Assembly (NCBI RefSeq): GCF_037914945.1
Contig: NZ_CP149790.1
Coordinates: 1-64,000, forward strand
DNA from: Haloterrigena sp. KLK7
Lineage (GTDB): Archaea; Halobacteriota; Halobacteria; Halobacteriales; Natrialbaceae
Length of the DNA stretch: 64,000 nt
Direction: 5' to 3'
A program made the position numbers and the translations under genes. Below, piece by piece: positions 4,140 to 53,968 of this stretch (positions within the stretch are counted from its first letter, which is position 1; the number at the start of each line of letters is the position of its first letter). The notes beneath the pieces were generated by a model, which was given only the letters and a program-made list of their open reading frames with translations, did not search any database and was not told the origin of the DNA.

Positions 4140-5378
4140 CTAAATCGTCGTGAATTCTTCACCGGAGTCAGGAAGGTACTCGATGAGACTCCGATGTGCA
4201 CCGAATTCGCTGATAATCGTCTGTAGCGCGTCGACGACAGTCGCGATGTCGCGATTGAGTTCATGCTCACGGTACGTTCCACCCTTCTGACCGCGGTGTT
4301 CCATGTGCGAAAGCGTTAGATTGAGGATCTCGAAATCGGACAGGAAACTGCGCATTCGGCGGGCAGTACGGGGATCACGACCCTGGAACTCACAGAGTTC
4401 TTTGTAGCGCTGGTAGACAATCCGTGACCGGGCTGGTGTAGTATCCTCTGCTGCCAGTGTGGTCAACGCGTAAAGTGTGAGTTGCTCGTGTTCAGTGAGG
4501 TCACGCATGATGTTCATGCTCTGCTGTGCCTCGAGTTTCTCCTGAGCGCGTTCGACGTGGTCAGTCGTCACTGAATCCGCGTTCTCGGTGCGTGCAAGAT
4601 CGCCAGCCTTCCGAAGGAGTGTAATCGCTCGTCGGGCGTCGCCACCGTCCTGACGACCAAGGGCTGCACACAACGCAATCACTCCTTCTTCGAGTGCGTT
4701 CTGGTGAAATGCGATATCGGCCCGCTGTTCGAGGACCTTCTGGAGCTCTTCCGTGCCGTATGGCGGGAACGAAATCTCGGTTTCACACAGAGACGATTGA
4801 ACCTTCGCATCGAGCTGCTCCCGGAACGTCGAGTCGTTACTGATCCCGATGAGGCCGAGCTGAATGTTGTCGATATATCCGTTGTTGTCGGCACGAGAAA
4901 TCTGGTAGAGGAACGTGTCGTCCGTGATGTGATCGATCTCGTCGAGAATAATGATCACGGTCCCAGAGAGCTTATTGAGTTCATCCCAGAGAAGACGATA
5001 GACTTTGGATTGAGGATGGCCGGTTTCGGCAATGTGGTGTTCAGGGTCTCGGAGATTGTTCACCAGACTAATCGCGGCCTGGTAGCTCGTGCTGAGGCCG
5101 TCGCAGTTGAGTGAGATGACAGAGAGATCAACTTCAAAATGTTTCGCTGATTCCCGAAGCTCGTTCAGTAAGAAGTTCGTCACCGCAGTCTTGCCGACAC
5201 CGGTCTTACCGTAGATGAAGATGTTGTCGGGGTACTCACCGTTGATGATCGGCTGTAGGGCCGCTTCGTACTCCTCAATCTCGTTATCCCGACCGACGAT
5301 GTCGTCTGGAACGTACTCGACTTTGAGTGTATTCCGACGTTTGTACAACGTATCGTCCGGCTGGAATCGAGGAGCCAT
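4140..5378 (-). CDS. Orc1/Cdc6 replication initiator (origin 1)
   Basis: Origin recognition AAA+ ATPase, 412 aa, the usual length for archaeal Orc1/Cdc6. Walker A GKTGVGKT is at about residues 57-64, Walker B ILDEID near 143, and a sensor-1 region LIGISND near 180. The initiator-specific region and a C-terminal winged helix fill residues 290-412. The gene points away from a large origin (5434-6387), the standard arrangement for a cognate initiator-origin pair. Codon use is noticeably less GC-rich than in the flanking helicase and pilus genes (for example runs such as AAT, ATT, TTC near 4700-5000), which hints at a separate history for the orc-origin module. No orc paralogue number can be assigned from the sequence alone. 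Confidence 0.95.
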   Translation of the reverse strand: MAPRFQPDDTLYKRRNTLKVEYVPDDIVGRDNEIEEYEAALQPIINGEYPDNIFIYGKTGVGKTAVTNFLLNELRESAKHFEVDLSVISLNCDGLSTSYQAAISLVNNLRDPEHHIAETGHPQSKVYRLLWDELNKLSGTVIIILDEIDHITDDTFLYQISRADNNGYIDNIQLGLIGISNDSTFREQLDAKVQSSLCETEISFPPYGTEELQKVLEQRADIAFHQNALEEGVIALCAALGRQDGGDARRAITLLRKAGDLARTENADSVTTDHVERAQEKLEAQQSMNIMRDLTEHEQLTLYALTTLAAEDTTPARSRIVYQRYKELCEFQGRDPRTARRMRSFLSDFEILNLTLSHMEHRGQKGGTYREHELNRDIATVVDALQTIISEFGAHRSLIEYLPDSGEEFTTI

Positions 5379-47605: not shown

Positions 47606-48196
47606 ATGACCGACTCACCGGACGATACCGCCACCGCACGGAGCGCCGACGAATCAGCCGAGAAGCGACTCGTTTCGGGCTGGCACGGCCGCTACTACGA
47701 GGATTTCGCGGTCGGCGATATCTACAAGCATCCGTTCGGCCGAACCGTCACCGAGACGGACAACGTCTGGATGACCAACGTCACGATGAACCTCAACCCG
47801 ATGCACTTCAACGAGGCCTACGCGTCCGAGACGGAGTTCGGCGAGCGCCTCGTCGACGGCACGTTCGTCATCGCGCTGGCGGTCGGGATGAGCGTCATCG
47901 ACGTCTCCGTAAACGCGACGGCCAATCTCGGCTACGATGACGTCCGACACCACGAGCCCGTCTTCCACGGCGATACCATCTTCGCCGAAAGCGAGGTGTT
48001 GAGCAAGCGGGAACTCGAGTCCCGCGACCACGTCGGCATCGTCGAGACCGAACTCCGGGCGTACAACCAGCACGGCGATCTGGTGTTGAGCCTGGAGCGG
48101 ACGCCGATGGTGCTGAAACGCGAATACGCCGAGCCGTCCGCGGCGGCACCGCCGGGCTGGCCCGAAGGAATCGGGACCCAGCCCGAGGATCTGTAG
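47606..48196 (+). CDS. MaoC-like dehydratase/hydratase
   Basis: A 196-residue hot-dog fold protein of the MaoC/R-specific enoyl-CoA hydratase superfamily. GRYYEDFAVGDIYKHPFGRT is the usual start, and MNLNPMHFNEAYA carries the Asn-Pro-x-His catalytic motif of the family (variant of D-x-x-P-x-H). The protein probably acts on mesaconyl- or enoyl-CoA esters. A degenerate copy of its last 90 bp exists at 49937-50028. It shares the locus with a thiolase, consistent with acyl-CoA metabolism. Confidence 0.87.
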   Translation: MTDSPDDTATARSADESAEKRLVSGWHGRYYEDFAVGDIYKHPFGRTVTETDNVWMTNVTMNLNPMHFNEAYASETEFGERLVDGTFVIALAVGMSVIDVSVNATANLGYDDVRHHEPVFHGDTIFAESEVLSKRELESRDHVGIVETELRAYNQHGDLVLSLERTPMVLKREYAEPSAAAPPGWPEGIGTQPEDL

Positions 48197-48290
48197 CGGC
48201 GGAGCGAACCGTCGAGAGCGGGACCTTTGGGCGGCCGACTCCGTGGTGTCAGGCCTCGCGATGCGGGCCCCCGCGACGCCTGGGATCCGG

Positions 48291-48455
48291 TCAGAGAGGG
48301 ATGGCCGCGATCTCGTCGGAGCCACAGGACGGACACCCGATGGCGTCCTTCGAGAGCGTGAGCCCGCAGCGGCGGCATTCGTAGTGGACGGTCGTTCGCT
48401 CGCCGACCTCGCGAAGGCCGCCGATGCGGTCGAATAGTTCGTCTAGTACAGTCAT
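48291..48455 (-). CDS. Short zinc-ribbon protein
   Basis: A 54-residue frame: MTVLDELFDRIGGLREVG, then HYECRRCGLTLS and IGCPSCGSDEIAAIPL. The two C-x2-C pairs are a zinc ribbon. It has a clear ATG (48455) and TGA stop and high third-position GC. It lies between maoC and the thiolase gene on the opposite strand. The function is unknown; a zinc ribbon/OB-type partner of haloarchaeal thiolases is known, but this one is too short to hold an OB fold, so this link is speculative. Confidence 0.72.
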   Translation of the reverse strand: MTVLDELFDRIGGLREVGERTTVHYECRRCGLTLSKDAIGCPSCGSDEIAAIPL

Positions 48456-48715
48456 TCGTTACTGTCGTCGCATCCTGACGGTCGGTTCGGCATATACTTT
48501 GTGTGAAATGTATTTGTGATAGATCTATAACTAGACATATGACCAGTTTTCTAGCCGTAATAATACCGTTTGATTCAGGTAGTGAATCGGAACGAATTCG
48601 GGAGACGGTGACCGAGTGACTGCGCCAACGTGGCACCAGCTCCGAGCGAGGGGTCGGGTCTCGCGGCGCGCGTTCACGGCCAACCTCAATTCGCGTTCGC
48701 GTCGACCGGGCGTCC

Positions 48716-49903
48716 ATGACCGGCGCTGACAGCGAACCCGACGTCGTCCTCGTCGACGGCGCGCGGACGCCCCACGGAACGCTGCTCGGATCGCTCGCGG
48801 ACGTCGAGGCGGTCGAACTCGGCCGGACGGCGATCGACGGTCTCCTCGAGCGTGTCGACGTCGACACGGGCGATATCGACTGGGTGGGTCTCGGGAACGC
48901 CATTCAGGCCGGCATCGGTCAGGTGCCGGGACGGCAGGTCGTCGTCGAATCCGACCTCCCGAACGAGACGCGCGCGACGACGATCAACGAGGCCTCCGGA
49001 TCCGGGATGAGCGCGATCGGGCTCGCAGCGGATCGGATCGCCGCCGGCCGCGCCGAACTGGCGATCGCGGGCGGGTTCGAGTCGATGACCAACGCGCCGT
49101 GGATCCTCCCCGACTACCGGAAGGGACGTCGCCACGGTGACGTCGAGATCAAGGACTCGATGCTGCTGGACTCGCTGTGGGACGTCAACCTCGACGTTCA
49201 CATGGGCGAGATCACTGAGGGGATGGTCGACCGCGAGGGGGTCTCCCGCGAGGAACAGGACGAGTACGCCCTCGAGAGCCACCGGTGGGCCGCCGAAGCG
49301 ATCGAAGAGGGGCGGTTCGACGCCGAGATCGTCCCCGTCGAGACCGGCGGCGGAACGGTCGCCGAAGATCAGGGACCGCGCCCCGACTCGACGCTGTCCG
49401 ATCTGGCCGAGCTTCCCACGTCGTTTCGCGAGGACGGAACCATCACGCCGGGCAACGCCTCGAAACTCAGCGACGGCGCGGGGGCGGTGCTGCTGGCCGA
49501 CGAGGAAACGGCCAGCGATCGGGACCTCGAGCCGATGGCGAGGCTCGTCGACTACGCGACCGCCTACCGCGATCCCGACCGGTTCAACGAGGCCGTCGGC
49601 GACGTCGTCGAGAAGCTCCTCGAGCGCAACGAGCTCGCGGTCGAGGACGTCGACGCCTACTGGATCAACGAGGCCTTCGCCGCGCAGGCGGTCTACGTCA
49701 TGGATCGCGTCGGCATCCCGCGCGAGAAGATGAACCCGCAGGGCGGCGCGATCGCGTTCGGCCACCCCATCGGTGCCTCCGGCGGGATGCTCGCGGCCAG
49801 CCTCGCCTACCAGATCCGCGACGATCCCGACGTCGAACGCGGCTTCGTCGGAATGAGTATCGGCGGCGGCGGCGCGATCATGGGACTGCTCGAGAGCTAC
49901 TGA
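48716..49903 (+). CDS. Thiolase with Ser at the usual Cys positions (haloarchaeal beta-ketothiolase type)
   Basis: A 395-residue thiolase-fold protein. VLVDGARTPHGTLLGSLADV is the standard N-terminus. At the nucleophile site the sequence is TINEASGSGMSAI, with Ser where bacterial and eukaryotic thiolases have Cys (N-x-V-C-G-S-G). NEAFAAQAV and GGAIAFGHPIGASG keep the catalytic histidine region. The second active-site Cys (normally C-x-G-G-G-x-G) is Ser in MSIGGGGA. Haloarchaeal thiolases with a Ser-His-His active site are known from PHBV synthesis work, so the gene is probably functional. A truncated copy exists at 52615-52771. Confidence 0.87.
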   Translation: MTGADSEPDVVLVDGARTPHGTLLGSLADVEAVELGRTAIDGLLERVDVDTGDIDWVGLGNAIQAGIGQVPGRQVVVESDLPNETRATTINEASGSGMSAIGLAADRIAAGRAELAIAGGFESMTNAPWILPDYRKGRRHGDVEIKDSMLLDSLWDVNLDVHMGEITEGMVDREGVSREEQDEYALESHRWAAEAIEEGRFDAEIVPVETGGGTVAEDQGPRPDSTLSDLAELPTSFREDGTITPGNASKLSDGAGAVLLADEETASDRDLEPMARLVDYATAYRDPDRFNEAVGDVVEKLLERNELAVEDVDAYWINEAFAAQAVYVMDRVGIPREKMNPQGGAIAFGHPIGASGGMLAASLAYQIRDDPDVERGFVGMSIGGGGAIMGLLESY

Positions 49904-49936
49904 CCGGACCGATCGTCACTCAGGTCTCGAGCAACG

Positions 49937-50028
49937 TCGATGGTGCTGAAACGCGAGTGCGCCGCGTCGTCGACCGCGCAGCCGGTCGGGGTAGTCCGAG
50001 AGGTCGGGACGCAGCCGGAGGACTATAG
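49937..50028 (+). pseudogene. Scrap of a second maoC 3' end
   Basis: The sequence from CGATGGTGCTGAAACGCGA (49938-49956) to the TAG at 50026-50028 aligns with the last 95 bp of the maoC gene (from 48105), with the 19-bp block CGATGGTGCTGAAACGCGA identical and the remainder diverged by point changes and small gaps, including matching GGGAC-CAGCC-GAGGA near the end. It lies directly after the thiolase stop (49903) and before the orc gene. Confidence 0.72.
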
Positions 50029-50150
50029 ACTTCGATAGAGGTGAAATAGAAGGAATCCCGTTTTTCGAGGATAAAGGCCTACGCTCAGAATATCATCTGT
50101 ATACACATCGAATAGGGAAATATTTTCAATATAGAGCATACAGTAATCAT

Positions 50151-51602
50151 ATGGATAAGAGCGAACAAGATGAAGCCGGTCAAATAACGTCGAGCAATGA
50201 ATCACAGCAGAGGACAGATGATTCTGAGCTGTACTCGGCGCCGGAAGACCACAACTCGGAAGCGGGAACACCTCAAACCGCAACGAGTAACACGCAGCGT
50301 ACGATTCGAGAAATGCTCGATGGAGAGGAAAACACCTCCGTGTTCGTTAATCGCGATCTCGTCGAACCGGAAACGATCATCGACGAGGAACGAATCGTCG
50401 GTCGGGACGATCAACTCGAGTCAGTCGTGTCGTTCTTGCGACCGGCGCTTCAGGGAAATCGACCGCCGAATATGCTCCTCTATGGTCCGGCAGGGACGGG
50501 AAAATCGCTGATAATTAACGCTGTTACGCAACAAATAATCGACTTGTGCAAATCCAACGGAGTTATCTTCGGTGTTATCGACATTAACTGCCAAGCGATT
50601 AATACGCTCGATCAAGCGGTATACGAACTCGTAAAGACTGTCGCGACTGATGTCGGTACCGAGATCGGCGTTCCCGAAACGGGTGTCTCAACCCAGCGGA
50701 AGTATCGTCGCCTCTACGAACTGATCAACGATCACTACGATTCGGTCATTTTCATTCTCGACGAAATCGATCTCCTTGTCGGACGTCCGGACCACGTTGA
50801 ACCAGCCTATTCGAGGCTACTCTACCAATTGTCTCAAGCGAGTAGCACGAACGATATCGAAGGTCGAGTATCAGTCGCAGCGCTGACGAATGATCCGCGC
50901 TTCATGGAGAATATCGACGGTCGAGCGGAGAGTTCGTTCAATCCTCGAGACGTCTACTTTCCCGATTACGATGCGAATCAACTGCGTCAGATACTTACGA
51001 ATCGCCGCGACGCGTTTCGACCTAATGCACTCTCCGACGACGTAATCCCGCTCGTCGCAGCGTTTGCGGCACAGAGCCACGGCGATGCTCGCAAGGCCAT
51101 CGATCTGTTTCGCGGAGCCGGCGATCTCGCAGATGAGCGCGGCGACGAGGTGGTCACTGAAGTTCACGTTCGTGATTCCCAAGAGGAGATCGACAAAGAT
51201 CGGTCGATGAAACTCATCGATGGCCTCACTACTCAGAAAAAGGTCTCGCTGTACGCAACAGGAGCGGTCGCTCAGTACTCGAATCGGTCGAGTAGCTCCG
51301 TACCGAGTCCAGTCGGGTTCAAGGTCTACCAGTGGCTGACTGACGAACTCGATACTGATCAAATGACTCGAGAGACGTACGTCAAATACGTCAAGGAACT
51401 CTCGACGTATGGCCTCGTTGCGACGACCCGTAAGAGTAGGGGTCGGGGCCGCGGTATGTATATGGAATTCACGTTCACCGGAGACCCGGCGGGAGTACTA
51501 GACCGACTCAGTGAGGATTCGCGAATTGCGAACGTCGCGGATTATGATGAGCCGATCCAGACGATCGTTATCACGCAACTTAGAGAGTTCCACGAGAACT
51601 GA
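50151..51602 (+). CDS. Orc1/Cdc6 replication initiator (origin 2)
   Basis: A 483-residue archaeal Orc1/Cdc6. A disordered N-terminus of about 60 residues precedes the AAA+ domain: Walker A GPAGTGKS near residue 112, Walker B FILDEIDLL near 202, and sensor motif ALTNDPRF near 242. The C-terminal part (from 355) is the winged helix with an RGRGRGMYM wing. The codon use is AT-richer than neighbours, like the first orc. A TATA-like run (TATTTTCAATATAG, 50121-50134) lies about 20-30 bp before the ATG, so the transcript may be leaderless. The protein is clearly different from the first initiator (longer N-terminus and different sequence), consistent with its own box type. Confidence 0.93.
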   Translation: MDKSEQDEAGQITSSNESQQRTDDSELYSAPEDHNSEAGTPQTATSNTQRTIREMLDGEENTSVFVNRDLVEPETIIDEERIVGRDDQLESVVSFLRPALQGNRPPNMLLYGPAGTGKSLIINAVTQQIIDLCKSNGVIFGVIDINCQAINTLDQAVYELVKTVATDVGTEIGVPETGVSTQRKYRRLYELINDHYDSVIFILDEIDLLVGRPDHVEPAYSRLLYQLSQASSTNDIEGRVSVAALTNDPRFMENIDGRAESSFNPRDVYFPDYDANQLRQILTNRRDAFRPNALSDDVIPLVAAFAAQSHGDARKAIDLFRGAGDLADERGDEVVTEVHVRDSQEEIDKDRSMKLIDGLTTQKKVSLYATGAVAQYSNRSSSSVPSPVGFKVYQWLTDELDTDQMTRETYVKYVKELSTYGLVATTRKSRGRGRGMYMEFTFTGDPAGVLDRLSEDSRIANVADYDEPIQTIVITQLREFHEN

Positions 51603-51621
51603 TTTCCACTCAACCAGTCAT

Positions 51622-52545
51622 CCCCCGTTATCGGAGTGTAACTGCTCTCGAAGTCAGACCGAAGGTAGAGTCACTTCGATGAACGGGATTTGATCCTTTC
51701 GGCGCTCGCTCTCCTTCAGCCCCTCCCCCCGTTATCGAAGTGTAAATCCGGCACAGGTCGGATCGTTAGGCGTCATGTGGGGAGTTGCTTCAGGTCGCAG
51801 TGAGTTCAGTTGGAAGAATCTCGAGCTAAAGAAGAGCAGTAAAGAGGACATAGGGAATCTTACACGAGACGAAAACTACATCACTAACCTACATTACTTG
51901 TAACTATATTACGGATACAGTTTCTATCCTACTATAATAAATTCTTCTGTATTCAAGCCACACTGAACAGTTGAGGTTCCTCGCTGATTCGCCTCCTTGA
52001 GGCGGTATCTCTCTGTATTAGTCCATTGATCGATCGTCGGTTTACACTTCGATAACGGGGGGAGGGAGTAGTGAATTGCTGAAACGGTGGTGGGGGTGCA
52101 TCAGGTGCCGACCTAATCACAGTTCCCCAGAGTCGCGATCGAATTGCTGAAACAGAGGTGGGTGTTGACTTGGTCCATCAACGGTCACCCGTTACGGCTC
52201 GGTCGGAATTGCTGAAACGGCGGTAGGCCCCTTTCCTCACAGTACGAGAGTGACCAACGGATCAGCAAGGGACAGAGAACAGCGGACATAGTGGTGTGGG
52301 TGTGTCCGTCTATGATATATAAATAACAGAGCTTCGGACACTCCGGACACGGTGGTTATATAAATATCGCGTGACGCACCGCCTTGCACGCCACCCTCTC
52401 CGTACGGAACTTCTGCGGAAACAGTGATGGACTGATCGACCCCACACCACCGTGTCCGCTGTTCTGATTTCGTTCTCGGCTACGGAACTGCGGACAGAGC
52501 GGTGTGCCTGTCTACGGGACACCACCGCGTCCGCAGTTCTCTTGG
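51622..52545. other. Replication origin 2 (origin boxes flanking an AT-rich element)
   Basis: About 900 bp downstream of the second orc lacks genes and carries two kinds of repeats. Long boxes read CCCCCGTTATCGGAGTGTAAC (51622-51642), the same with CGAAGTGTAAAT (51725-51747) and, inverted, TTTACACTTCGATAACGGGG (52041-52060) continuing into GG. Shorter boxes of the form GAATTGCTGAAACGGTGG lie at 52073-52098, 52141-52165 and 52206-52227, with relatives CAGCGGACATAGTGGTGTGG (about 52280) and CACACCACCGTGTCCGCTGT (52443-52462, inverted). The inverted long boxes flank an AT-rich stretch at about 51840-51960. The layout is that of an initiation site for the adjacent orc. The box sequence differs from origin 1. 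Confidence 0.85.
51840..51960. other. AT-rich duplex-unwinding candidate (origin 2)
   Basis: Lower GC sequence (for example ATTACTTGTAACTATATTAC and TATCCTACTATAATAAATTC) between the direct long boxes and the inverted long box. No gene is seen. Confidence 0.6.
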
Positions 52546-52614
52546 GAGGAATCGAAACCACACTCGGTCCGGAGTCGTGCTACTAGTGAACGAACTCGAG
52601 TGGACGAACCCACG

Positions 52615-52771
52615 ATGCTCACTACTGGCCCCGAGAGCGACATCGTCCTCGTCGACGGCGCGCGAAGTTCCACGGAGACGTCGACGGCTACTGGACCCCG
52701 ACGTCAAGAGCGGCTTCGTTGGGACGAGTATCGGCAGCGGCATAATCATAGGACTGCTCGAGAGTCACTGA
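52615..52771 (+). pseudogene. Scrap of a second thiolase gene with large internal deletions
   Basis: The start reads MLTTGPESDIVLVDGARS, matching the thiolase N-terminus (DSEPDVVLVDGART). A middle piece GACGTCGACGGCTACTGGA matches the stretch around 49645 that encodes DVDAYW. The last part in another frame is DPDVKSGFVGTSIGSG, then GLLESH and a stop, matching the thiolase C-terminus (DPDVERGFVGMSIGGGG, GLLESY). About 1 kb of the middle of the gene is missing in at least two pieces, and the frame is shifted. Confidence 0.85.
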
Positions 52772-52897
52772 TCCGTCCGAACTCCCGCCACGACCCCAGA
52801 CAGGAACCGCCCCCTCCGGACCGATCGTCGCTCGAGGCCGCAGTCGACGATCCCGTCTTCGAGACGTTTACTTATCGGCCGTTCCGACTACCAGCAA

Positions 52898-53968
52898 ATG
52901 ACGCTGTACTCGCGGGTTCGCCCCCTCGCGTTCAAACTGCCGGCCGAGACCGCTCACGATCTCGGCAAGCGGACGCTCCGGGCGGCCCAGTCGACGTGGC
53001 CGACGCGGCGGGCCCTCGCCGCGGCCTACCGATACGACCATCCGGCCCTCGAGGTCGATCTCTTCGGCACCACGTTTCCGAACCCGGTCGGGATCGCGGC
53101 CGGCTTCGACAAGAACGCCGAAGTGACCCACGCCCTCGAGGCGCTGGGCTTCGGCTTCGTCGAGATCGGCACCGTCACGCCCTACCCGCAGACGGGCAAC
53201 GACCGCCCCCGGCTCTTCCGCCTCCGGGAGGACGAGGGGATGATCAACCGGATGGGTTTCAACGGGCAGGGAATGGAGGCCGTCAAGGAGCGACTCGAGG
53301 CCGACGGCGCGCCCGGCTTCCCGCTGGGCGTCAACATCGGGAAGATGAACTCCTCGACGGAGGCGGAGGCGATCGAGGACTACCGGCGCGTCTTCGATCG
53401 GCTCTCGCCCTTTGCCGACTACGTCGTCGTCAACGTCTCCTGTCCGAACACGCCCGACGAGTTCGACGAGGCCTCGCCCGACCATCTCCGGGAGATCTTC
53501 GAGACTCTCGAGGCAGAAAACGACGCGGACGTCCCGCTGCTGGTGAAGATCGGCCCCGACGAACCCGAGGAGTCGGTGCTCGACCTCGTCGACATCGTTC
53601 GGGAGTTCGAGCTGGACGGCATCGTCGCGACCAACACCTCGACGACGCGCGAGGGCCTCGAGTCGCCCGCCCGCGAGGAGTGGGGCGGGCTCAGCGGCGC
53701 CCCCATCGAAGACAGATCGACGGCCGTCGTGCGGACGGTCGCCGAGTACACGGACGGCGAACTGCCGATTATCGGCGTCGGCGGCGTCGATTCGGCCGCG
53801 AGCGCCTACGAGAAGATTCGCGCGGGCGCGTCACTGGTACAACTGTACACCGGCTTCGTCTACGAGGGACCGTCGACGGCCAAGCGGATCAACCGGGGAC
53901 TGGTCGCGTTGCTCGAGCGCGACGGGTTCTCGTCGGTCGAGGACGCGGTCGGAGCCGACCTCGAGTAG
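52898..53968 (+). CDS. pyrD: Dihydroorotate dehydrogenase (quinone type, class 2)
   Basis: FMN flavoprotein of pyrimidine synthesis, oxidising dihydroorotate to orotate at the membrane with quinone. The 356 residues include NPVGIAAGFDKNAEVTHALE, EIGTVTPYPQTGNDRPRLFR, GVNIGKMNSSTE and the active-site region YVVVNVSCPNTPDEFDE with the class 2 catalytic Ser. VGGVDSAASAYEKIRAGAS and LVQLYTGFVYEGP are the FMN phosphate site. The N-terminal helices LYSRVRPLAFKLPAETAHDL resemble the membrane-binding region of class 2 enzymes. The pyrC gene lies nearby on the opposite strand. Confidence 0.95.
   Translation: MTLYSRVRPLAFKLPAETAHDLGKRTLRAAQSTWPTRRALAAAYRYDHPALEVDLFGTTFPNPVGIAAGFDKNAEVTHALEALGFGFVEIGTVTPYPQTGNDRPRLFRLREDEGMINRMGFNGQGMEAVKERLEADGAPGFPLGVNIGKMNSSTEAEAIEDYRRVFDRLSPFADYVVVNVSCPNTPDEFDEASPDHLREIFETLEAENDADVPLLVKIGPDEPEESVLDLVDIVREFELDGIVATNTSTTREGLESPAREEWGGLSGAPIEDRSTAVVRTVAEYTDGELPIIGVGGVDSAASAYEKIRAGASLVQLYTGFVYEGPSTAKRINRGLVALLERDGFSSVEDAVGADLE

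Follow-up and report, generated by a model that had tools for sequence, protein, structure and literature searches.

The window analysed here covers the initial 64 kb of a contig of 211,846 bp from Haloterrigena sp. KLK7 (G000). Within it, an intact maoC gene (maoC1) and an intact thiolase gene (thiolase 1) are followed by a remnant of a maoC 3' end, a complete orc gene (orcP), two sets of predicted Orc binding sites (ORB-A and ORB-B), scraps of a second thiolase copy (thiolase 2) and pyrD (Table 1). We refer to the interval between the two thiolase copies as the slot.

The 212-kb replicon is related to pHTUR04 of Haloterrigena turkmenica. The replicons related to it are pHTUR04, pHTS171 of H. 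salifodinae BOL5-1, an H. alkaliphila plasmid and Natronorubrum plasmids; these are circular, complete and 160-215 kb in size, except that the N. aibiense record is linear. Halopiger xanaduensis (G029) carries the same genes within a 3.67-Mb contig. The genomes compared include H. salina (G001), G002 (about 98-99% identical to H. salifodinae BOL5-1 at the slot), G003, G004 (corresponding to pHTUR04) and H. alkaliphila (G005). Five orc genes are found on the 212-kb contig (G000 C4), at 4182, 50151, 76371, 88251 and 113095. About two of those outside the slot seem to be shared genus-wide, recurring in 6/6 genomes, so that the slot module is probably accessory.

Table 1. Features of the maoC-thiolase-orc locus (positions in the window)
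Feature	Position	Strand	Basis
maoC1, intact MaoC-family dehydratase	47606-48196	+	ORF; Pfam MaoC_dehydratas and MC_hydratase
Thiolase copy 1, intact	48716-49903	+	ORF; Pfam Thiolase_N and Thiolase_C; orthologues at the same place in relatives
Thiolase 1 3' flank, putative duplication junction	49904-49936	+	resembles native flank upstream of pyrD (52816-52833)
maoC 3'-end remnant (copy 2)	49934-50028	+	blastn; shuffles; homologous remnant in G003
orcP, intact Orc1/Cdc6 initiator of plasmid-borne type	50151-51602	+	ORF; domains; homologues
Two direct ORB-A sites, putative orcP-type binding sites	51623-51642, 51727-51746	+	
AT-richer stretch between ORB-A sites, putative unwinding region	51747-52040	.	
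Inverted ORB-A site	52041-52066	-	exact 26-bp inverted copy of 51721-51746
Three GAATTGCTGAAACGG-like repeats, seam of origins A and B	52073-52220 (from 52073, 52141, 52206)	+	
Orphan ORB-B sites, orcX type without orcX gene	52282-52296, 52343-52357, 52445-52459, 52520-52534	-, -, +, +	
Remains of thiolase copy 2 (5' part, 19 bp from the middle, 3' part with stop)	52615-52771	+	
pyrD, right-hand conserved flank	52898-53968	+	

The maoC and thiolase scraps reported in the initial annotation are real, and their coordinates were right within a few bases. In a blastn comparison of the region with itself, 49934-50022 matched maoC 48101-48189 (77% over 91 columns, E 2e-11). The 5' piece of thiolase 2 (52638-52676) matched thiolase 48739-48778 (87.5%), the middle piece (52677-52695) matched 49646-49664 (18/19), and the 3' piece (52694-52780) matched 49823-49912 (78%, E 1e-14). 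The scores of these four scraps were 78, 53, 33 and 80, respectively, compared to 35, 38, 30 and 33 for the best of 1000 dinucleotide-preserving shuffles of each; with 0/1000 shuffles matching the observed score in every case, a chance origin is ruled out. Taken alone, the 19-bp middle piece is the weakest scrap; other parts of the same gene are kept in place by other species. The upstream sequence of thiolase 2 type may start near 52591.

Downstream of thiolase 1, the flanking sequence is similar to the native flanks preceding pyrD in G000 (behind thiolase 2) and in G004 (local alignment, p ~0.0005), and the likeness holds for thiolase 1 of both G000 and G002 (p ~0.0005-0.001, base-shuffle test). 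This fits the prediction of a tandem duplication: the copies are adjacent on the same strand, and the native 3' flank of copy 1 is joined to copy 2, with moderate statistical support. Whether the maoC scrap derives from maoC1, as had been proposed, is less clear. It does not group with maoC1 and is nearest to the maoC of G009, which precedes a thiolase in the same locus, but in this short alignment a grouping with maoC1 is not rejected (AU p 0.36). The maoC1 gene itself is intact in G003, reduced to its first 70 codons in G002 and absent from G001, G004 and G005. A possible extension of the maoC remnant further upstream in G003 gave a weak signal (p 0.01, in comparison with G009 alone) and was set aside.

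Two initiator types and their predicted binding sites

Judged by gene content and motifs, the segment 50029-52066 is a complete putative origin of plasmid type (origin A), consisting of orc with two direct and one inverted predicted binding sites. The orc gene had already been described as complete; its reading frame is open and encodes AAA+, Cdc6 lid and Cdc6_C winged-helix domains, and the product is 75-77% identical at the amino acid level to Orc proteins on many haloarchaeal plasmids. No match to orcP was found in IMG/VR, and viral contigs were dropped as its source. ORB-A (CCCCGTTATCGAAGTGTAAA) occurs at three sites within the window compared to 0.01 expected by chance. It also flanks orcP homologues in G052, Halopiger xanaduensis, Natrinema caseinilyticum and pNRC200, and among the loci examined it was found only beside orcP homologues, not beside those of a second initiator type, orcX. 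Origin A exhibits the sequence features by which haloarchaeal origins are recognised, i.e. an adjoining Orc1/Cdc6 gene with AAA+ and winged-helix domains and inverted ORB repeats around an AT-richer stretch, although the latter has only 55% AT (36% in the whole window, 31-36% in the flanking genes). G-strings at the ORB ends are visible on inspection, too, with CCCCCC before GTTATCG at 51721 and GGGGGG at the mirror site.

The corresponding locus on pNRC200 (VNG_RS11490), whose Orc has 76% amino acid identity to OrcP, contains one direct and one inverted ORB-A downstream of orc, whereas other homologues have two direct sites and one inverted. pNRC200 and similar plasmid Orcs also have ORB-A upstream of orc, unlike the window, where upstream sites are absent and the orc tract ends 122 bp before the orcP start codon. 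The GAATTGCTGAAACGG-like repeats at the seam are spaced 65-68 bp apart; G003 has one copy and G002 a diverged one.

The origin had been thought to extend to 52545. A putative origin is indeed present, but this stretch combines two different ones side by side. In the window, ORB-B has exact and near-exact sites, with five matches of at most 2 mismatches compared to 0.43 expected. Its exact sequence ACACCACCGTGTCCGCTGTTCT is found as such at orcX homologues on Natrinema, Natronorubrum and Haloarcula plasmids as well as in G002, and among the loci examined ORB-B flanks orcX homologues (74-88% identical) and not orcP homologues. OrcX is 28% identical to OrcP and is encoded on the opposite strand in G002 and H. 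salifodinae BOL5-1. Over about 395 bp, which include the seam to thiolase 2, the ORB-B regions of G000 and G002 are homologous, and in both G002 and BOL5-1 the homologous region adjoins orcX.

No cognate orcX gene lies beside the ORB-B sites in the slot of the window. The nearest orcX paralogue in this genome shows 62% identity and is located on another contig (C3); its site differs recognisably (best match with 6/22 mismatches). At further orcX paralogues on Haloterrigena replicons, the sites are similar but distinct (TGTCCAGTGTCTT, TTTCCGGAGCTTT), which indicates that the motif tracks the initiator type. Since ORB-B sites are present without an orcX-type gene of more than 62% identity, they are best read as the probable remains of another origin. 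The single inserted module of the initial annotation is thereby replaced by a complete origin next to orphan sites of a different initiator, which is present in the slot of G002.

The slot in related species

In G000 and G003 the order is thiolase 1, maoC remnant, orcP, ORB-A, ORB-B, thiolase 2 scraps and pyrD, the orcP homologue of G003 (98% identity) being frameshifted. In G002 and BOL5-1, thiolase 1 is followed by an orcX gene of opposite orientation, then by ORB-B, the scraps of thiolase 2 and pyrD. The tandem thiolase copies with the origin module between maoC remnant and thiolase 2, as initially described, are thus seen in G000, G003 and G002. In G001 and G004 a single thiolase is followed by pyrD and the slot is missing.

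Scraps of maoC and thiolase in this position of a relative lacking any orc would have spoken against insertion into a duplicated locus. G005 comes halfway to this: the 3' end of a thiolase precedes pyrD as a scrap and orc is lacking, but thiolase 1 and maoC are missing as well, a pattern that reads as loss of its only thiolase copy. The G005 locus (L072 / L188) keeps a CoA ligase like that preceding maoC-thiolase in G009, for which reason the ancestral locus was probably a longer acyl-CoA operon.

The pieces of thiolase 2 retained are nt 24-63, ~931-949 and 1108-1188 in G000, nt 26-137 and ~882-938 in G003, and nt 965-1063 and 1138-1188 in G002. The 5' piece of G003 is 82% identical to G000 and 80% to Halopiger, the fragment being short. 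As different pieces persist in each species, a longer copy 2 existed in the ancestor and decayed after the species had parted, in agreement with the earlier proposal that decay followed the arrival of the module. Thiolase 2 was probably whole in the common ancestor.

A species tree from a 4.8-kb rpo region has the topology (G005,(G000,(G004,(G003,G001,G002)))), and gene trees from both sides of the locus place G000 outside the other four, too. The presence of the slot in G000, G003 and G002 and its absence in G004 and G001 requires two losses or exchanges. If the slot arose once, G004 and G001 would have lost it; recombination between the two thiolases would excise it cleanly. With a frameshifted orc in G003 and no slot at all in two species, the origin looks dispensable and is probably not essential. 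GC skew along the replicon shows no turn at the module; it is a weak indicator of firing either way and was dropped as evidence.

Age of the orc tract

Between G000 and G003, divergence at fourfold sites is 13/239 (5.4%) in orc, compared to 64/215 (29.8%) in thiolase 1, 44/199 (22.1%) in pyrD, 34/249 (13.7%) in pyrC and 36/206 (17.5%) in the upstream mrp gene (Fisher p 2e-12 to 0.002). The tests covered all genes compared but maoC1, in which divergence is likewise low (0.098, i.e. 9.8%). Identity of non-coding DNA is 93.7% in A and 90.9% in B compared to 77% in nearby intergenic DNA. Along the locus, identity jumps at about 50004, inside the maoC scrap, and remains high through 52513, where G003 has a deletion; the high-identity tract, from about 50004 to at least 52513, does not coincide with the module boundaries of about 50029 and 52614 assumed initially.

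The low fourfold divergence together with the high identity of A and B indicates that the orc tract is far more recent than the parting of G000 and G003, and hence younger than the duplication they share. To judge from these values, the present module is one that was swapped in or exchanged after the split, next to what is left of another origin. Non-coding divergence shows no significant difference between A and B (p 0.16), and identity in both lies above the intergenic baseline; an exchange of A alone, with vertical inheritance of B, was rejected on these grounds. Having moved together after the split, A and B would have landed in flanks already duplicated and already different. The earlier view that the origin arrived later than the duplication consequently holds for the present orc tract; it does not date the first origin in the slot. 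B also departs from the species tree: G003 and G002 are the closer relatives, yet identity is 71.9% for G003-G002 and 70.9% for G000-G002. B may therefore be imported in G000 or G003, which leaves orcX in their own ancestor unproven.

In maoC1, positions 47700-47899 are 99% identical between G000 and G003, well above the surroundings. This suggests that maoC itself may have recombined separately.

Order of events and alternative explanations

The initial order, i.e. duplication, a module between maoC2 and thiolase 2 and then decay, is largely supported, and may be extended as follows. A segment of maoC 3' end and thiolase would have been duplicated in tandem on a pHTUR04-like replicon, yielding a redundant copy upstream of pyrD. 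Between maoC2 and thiolase 2, an origin of orcX type, comprising the Orc and its ORB-B sites, may then have settled, and copy 2 would have decayed differently in each species. In the lineage or lineages of G000 and G003 the initiator half would have given way to a plasmid-type orcP origin, or have been lost where it lay next to one, so that ORB-B was orphaned; later, recombination in the slot would have carried the A+B tract between the two species. In the window genome, the ORB-A sites are most likely bound by OrcP, which would open the AT-richer stretch, so that the module could fire as an accessory origin of the replicon, ORB-B being inert; binding and opening would be analogous to other haloarchaeal origins (PMC3528665, PMC4441112). 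We give this course of events as a whole an even chance. That one initiator-origin pair was replaced in place by another specificity, with the old sites left behind and the slot repeatedly refilled via recombination between the duplicated flanks, is a tentative conclusion to which we give slightly less than even weight.

Differential loss is the main competitor of replacement: a module with an orcP-like gene and orcX tail to tail came first, G002 then losing orcP, and G000 and G003 losing orcX. On a Natrinema zhouii plasmid an orc (48% identical to orcP) on the plus strand is followed by orcX on the minus strand, in the order as reconstructed, and in Natrinema SYSU A 869 an orc lies near orcX with an IS200/IS605-type element in between. 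With at least two Natrinema plasmids having orc beside orcX, such loss is a real alternative. However, the Natrinema neighbour is not an orcP orthologue (48%, no ORB-A nearby), no ORB-A or orcP remnant was found in G002 or BOL5-1 and no orcX remnant in the slot of G000 or G003, and the young age of the tract would still require an exchange. We regard this course as rather unlikely. We consider it unlikely that the flanking copies arose when an orc plasmid with its own thiolase and maoC integrated by a single crossover in thiolase and was mostly lost later. The position of the origin exactly between two copies, the mostly plasmid-borne orcP and orcX homologues, the frequency of maoC relatives on haloarchaeal plasmids and the maoC scrap being nearer to G009 maoC than to maoC1 would fit such an event. 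It predicts, however, a plasmid maoC just upstream of thiolase 2 and not just downstream of thiolase 1, and the native-like 3' flank of thiolase 1 argues against it. Furthermore, no integrase or transposase ORF was recognised in 49904-52897, and blastn of the region against itself gave no boundary repeat. Finally, the orcP tract might merely evolve slowly under constraint. Origin sequences can be conserved, and the similar divergence of non-coding A and B would agree with this; but the fourfold sites are low, too, and orc of G003 is frameshifted, i.e. constraint is not acting there now, which makes this explanation very improbable.

Haloarchaeal origins come and go, but the way in which one is exchanged for another at a given position is known mainly by inference from their presence or absence. 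Closely related species show one and the same slot with initiator 1, with initiator 2 next to orphan sites that match initiator 1, with initiator 2 disrupted by a frameshift, or empty. A slot that has held two different initiators and still has sites fitting the missing one points to replication origins being replaceable in situ, its duplicated flanks supply a clock for the turnover, and both turnover and Orc/ORB pairing are directly testable within one small region.

Wu et al. (2014) describe variable regions of Haloarcula chromosomes as hotspots of origin gain, loss and disruption; H. marismortui has a distinct cdc6i origin where others have cdc6D, for which coupled insertion and deletion was proposed (PMC4441112). 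As in the slot, different or disrupted orc/cdc6 origins occupy the same position in related species. The Haloarcula region is chromosomal and transposase-rich (PMC4441112), whereas the slot lies on a conserved replicon, is framed by duplicated metabolic genes and still has the other initiator's sites beside the new origin. Wu et al. (2012) report an "origin pool" from which origins are recruited to extrachromosomal replicons, and three orc origins on pHTUR04 (PMC3528665), which is without the slot origin of the window. Both papers describe movement of orc origins between haloarchaea (PMC3528665, PMC4441112), and the slot resembles the pool in its plasmid-type, orc-adjacent origins, movable between species and replicons (PMC3528665). 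The base-level seam of A beside orphan B is a feature of the window not met in the available portions of Wu et al. (2012) (PMC3528665). Orphan sites beside another initiator's origin, framed by a gene duplication, would add to these portions of both papers, which may hold an equivalent case elsewhere.

In Natronorubrum bangense CP031307 (L189:3326-4600), a third Orc/Cdc6, 30-32% identical to OrcP and OrcX and annotated only as AAA family ATPase, is encoded between a CaiB-type CoA-transferase and thiolase of the same metabolic locus, which may be a recurrent landing place for origins. At G021:C1:2917459-2919685, an insertion of about 1.1 kb interrupts the thiolase of another family member.
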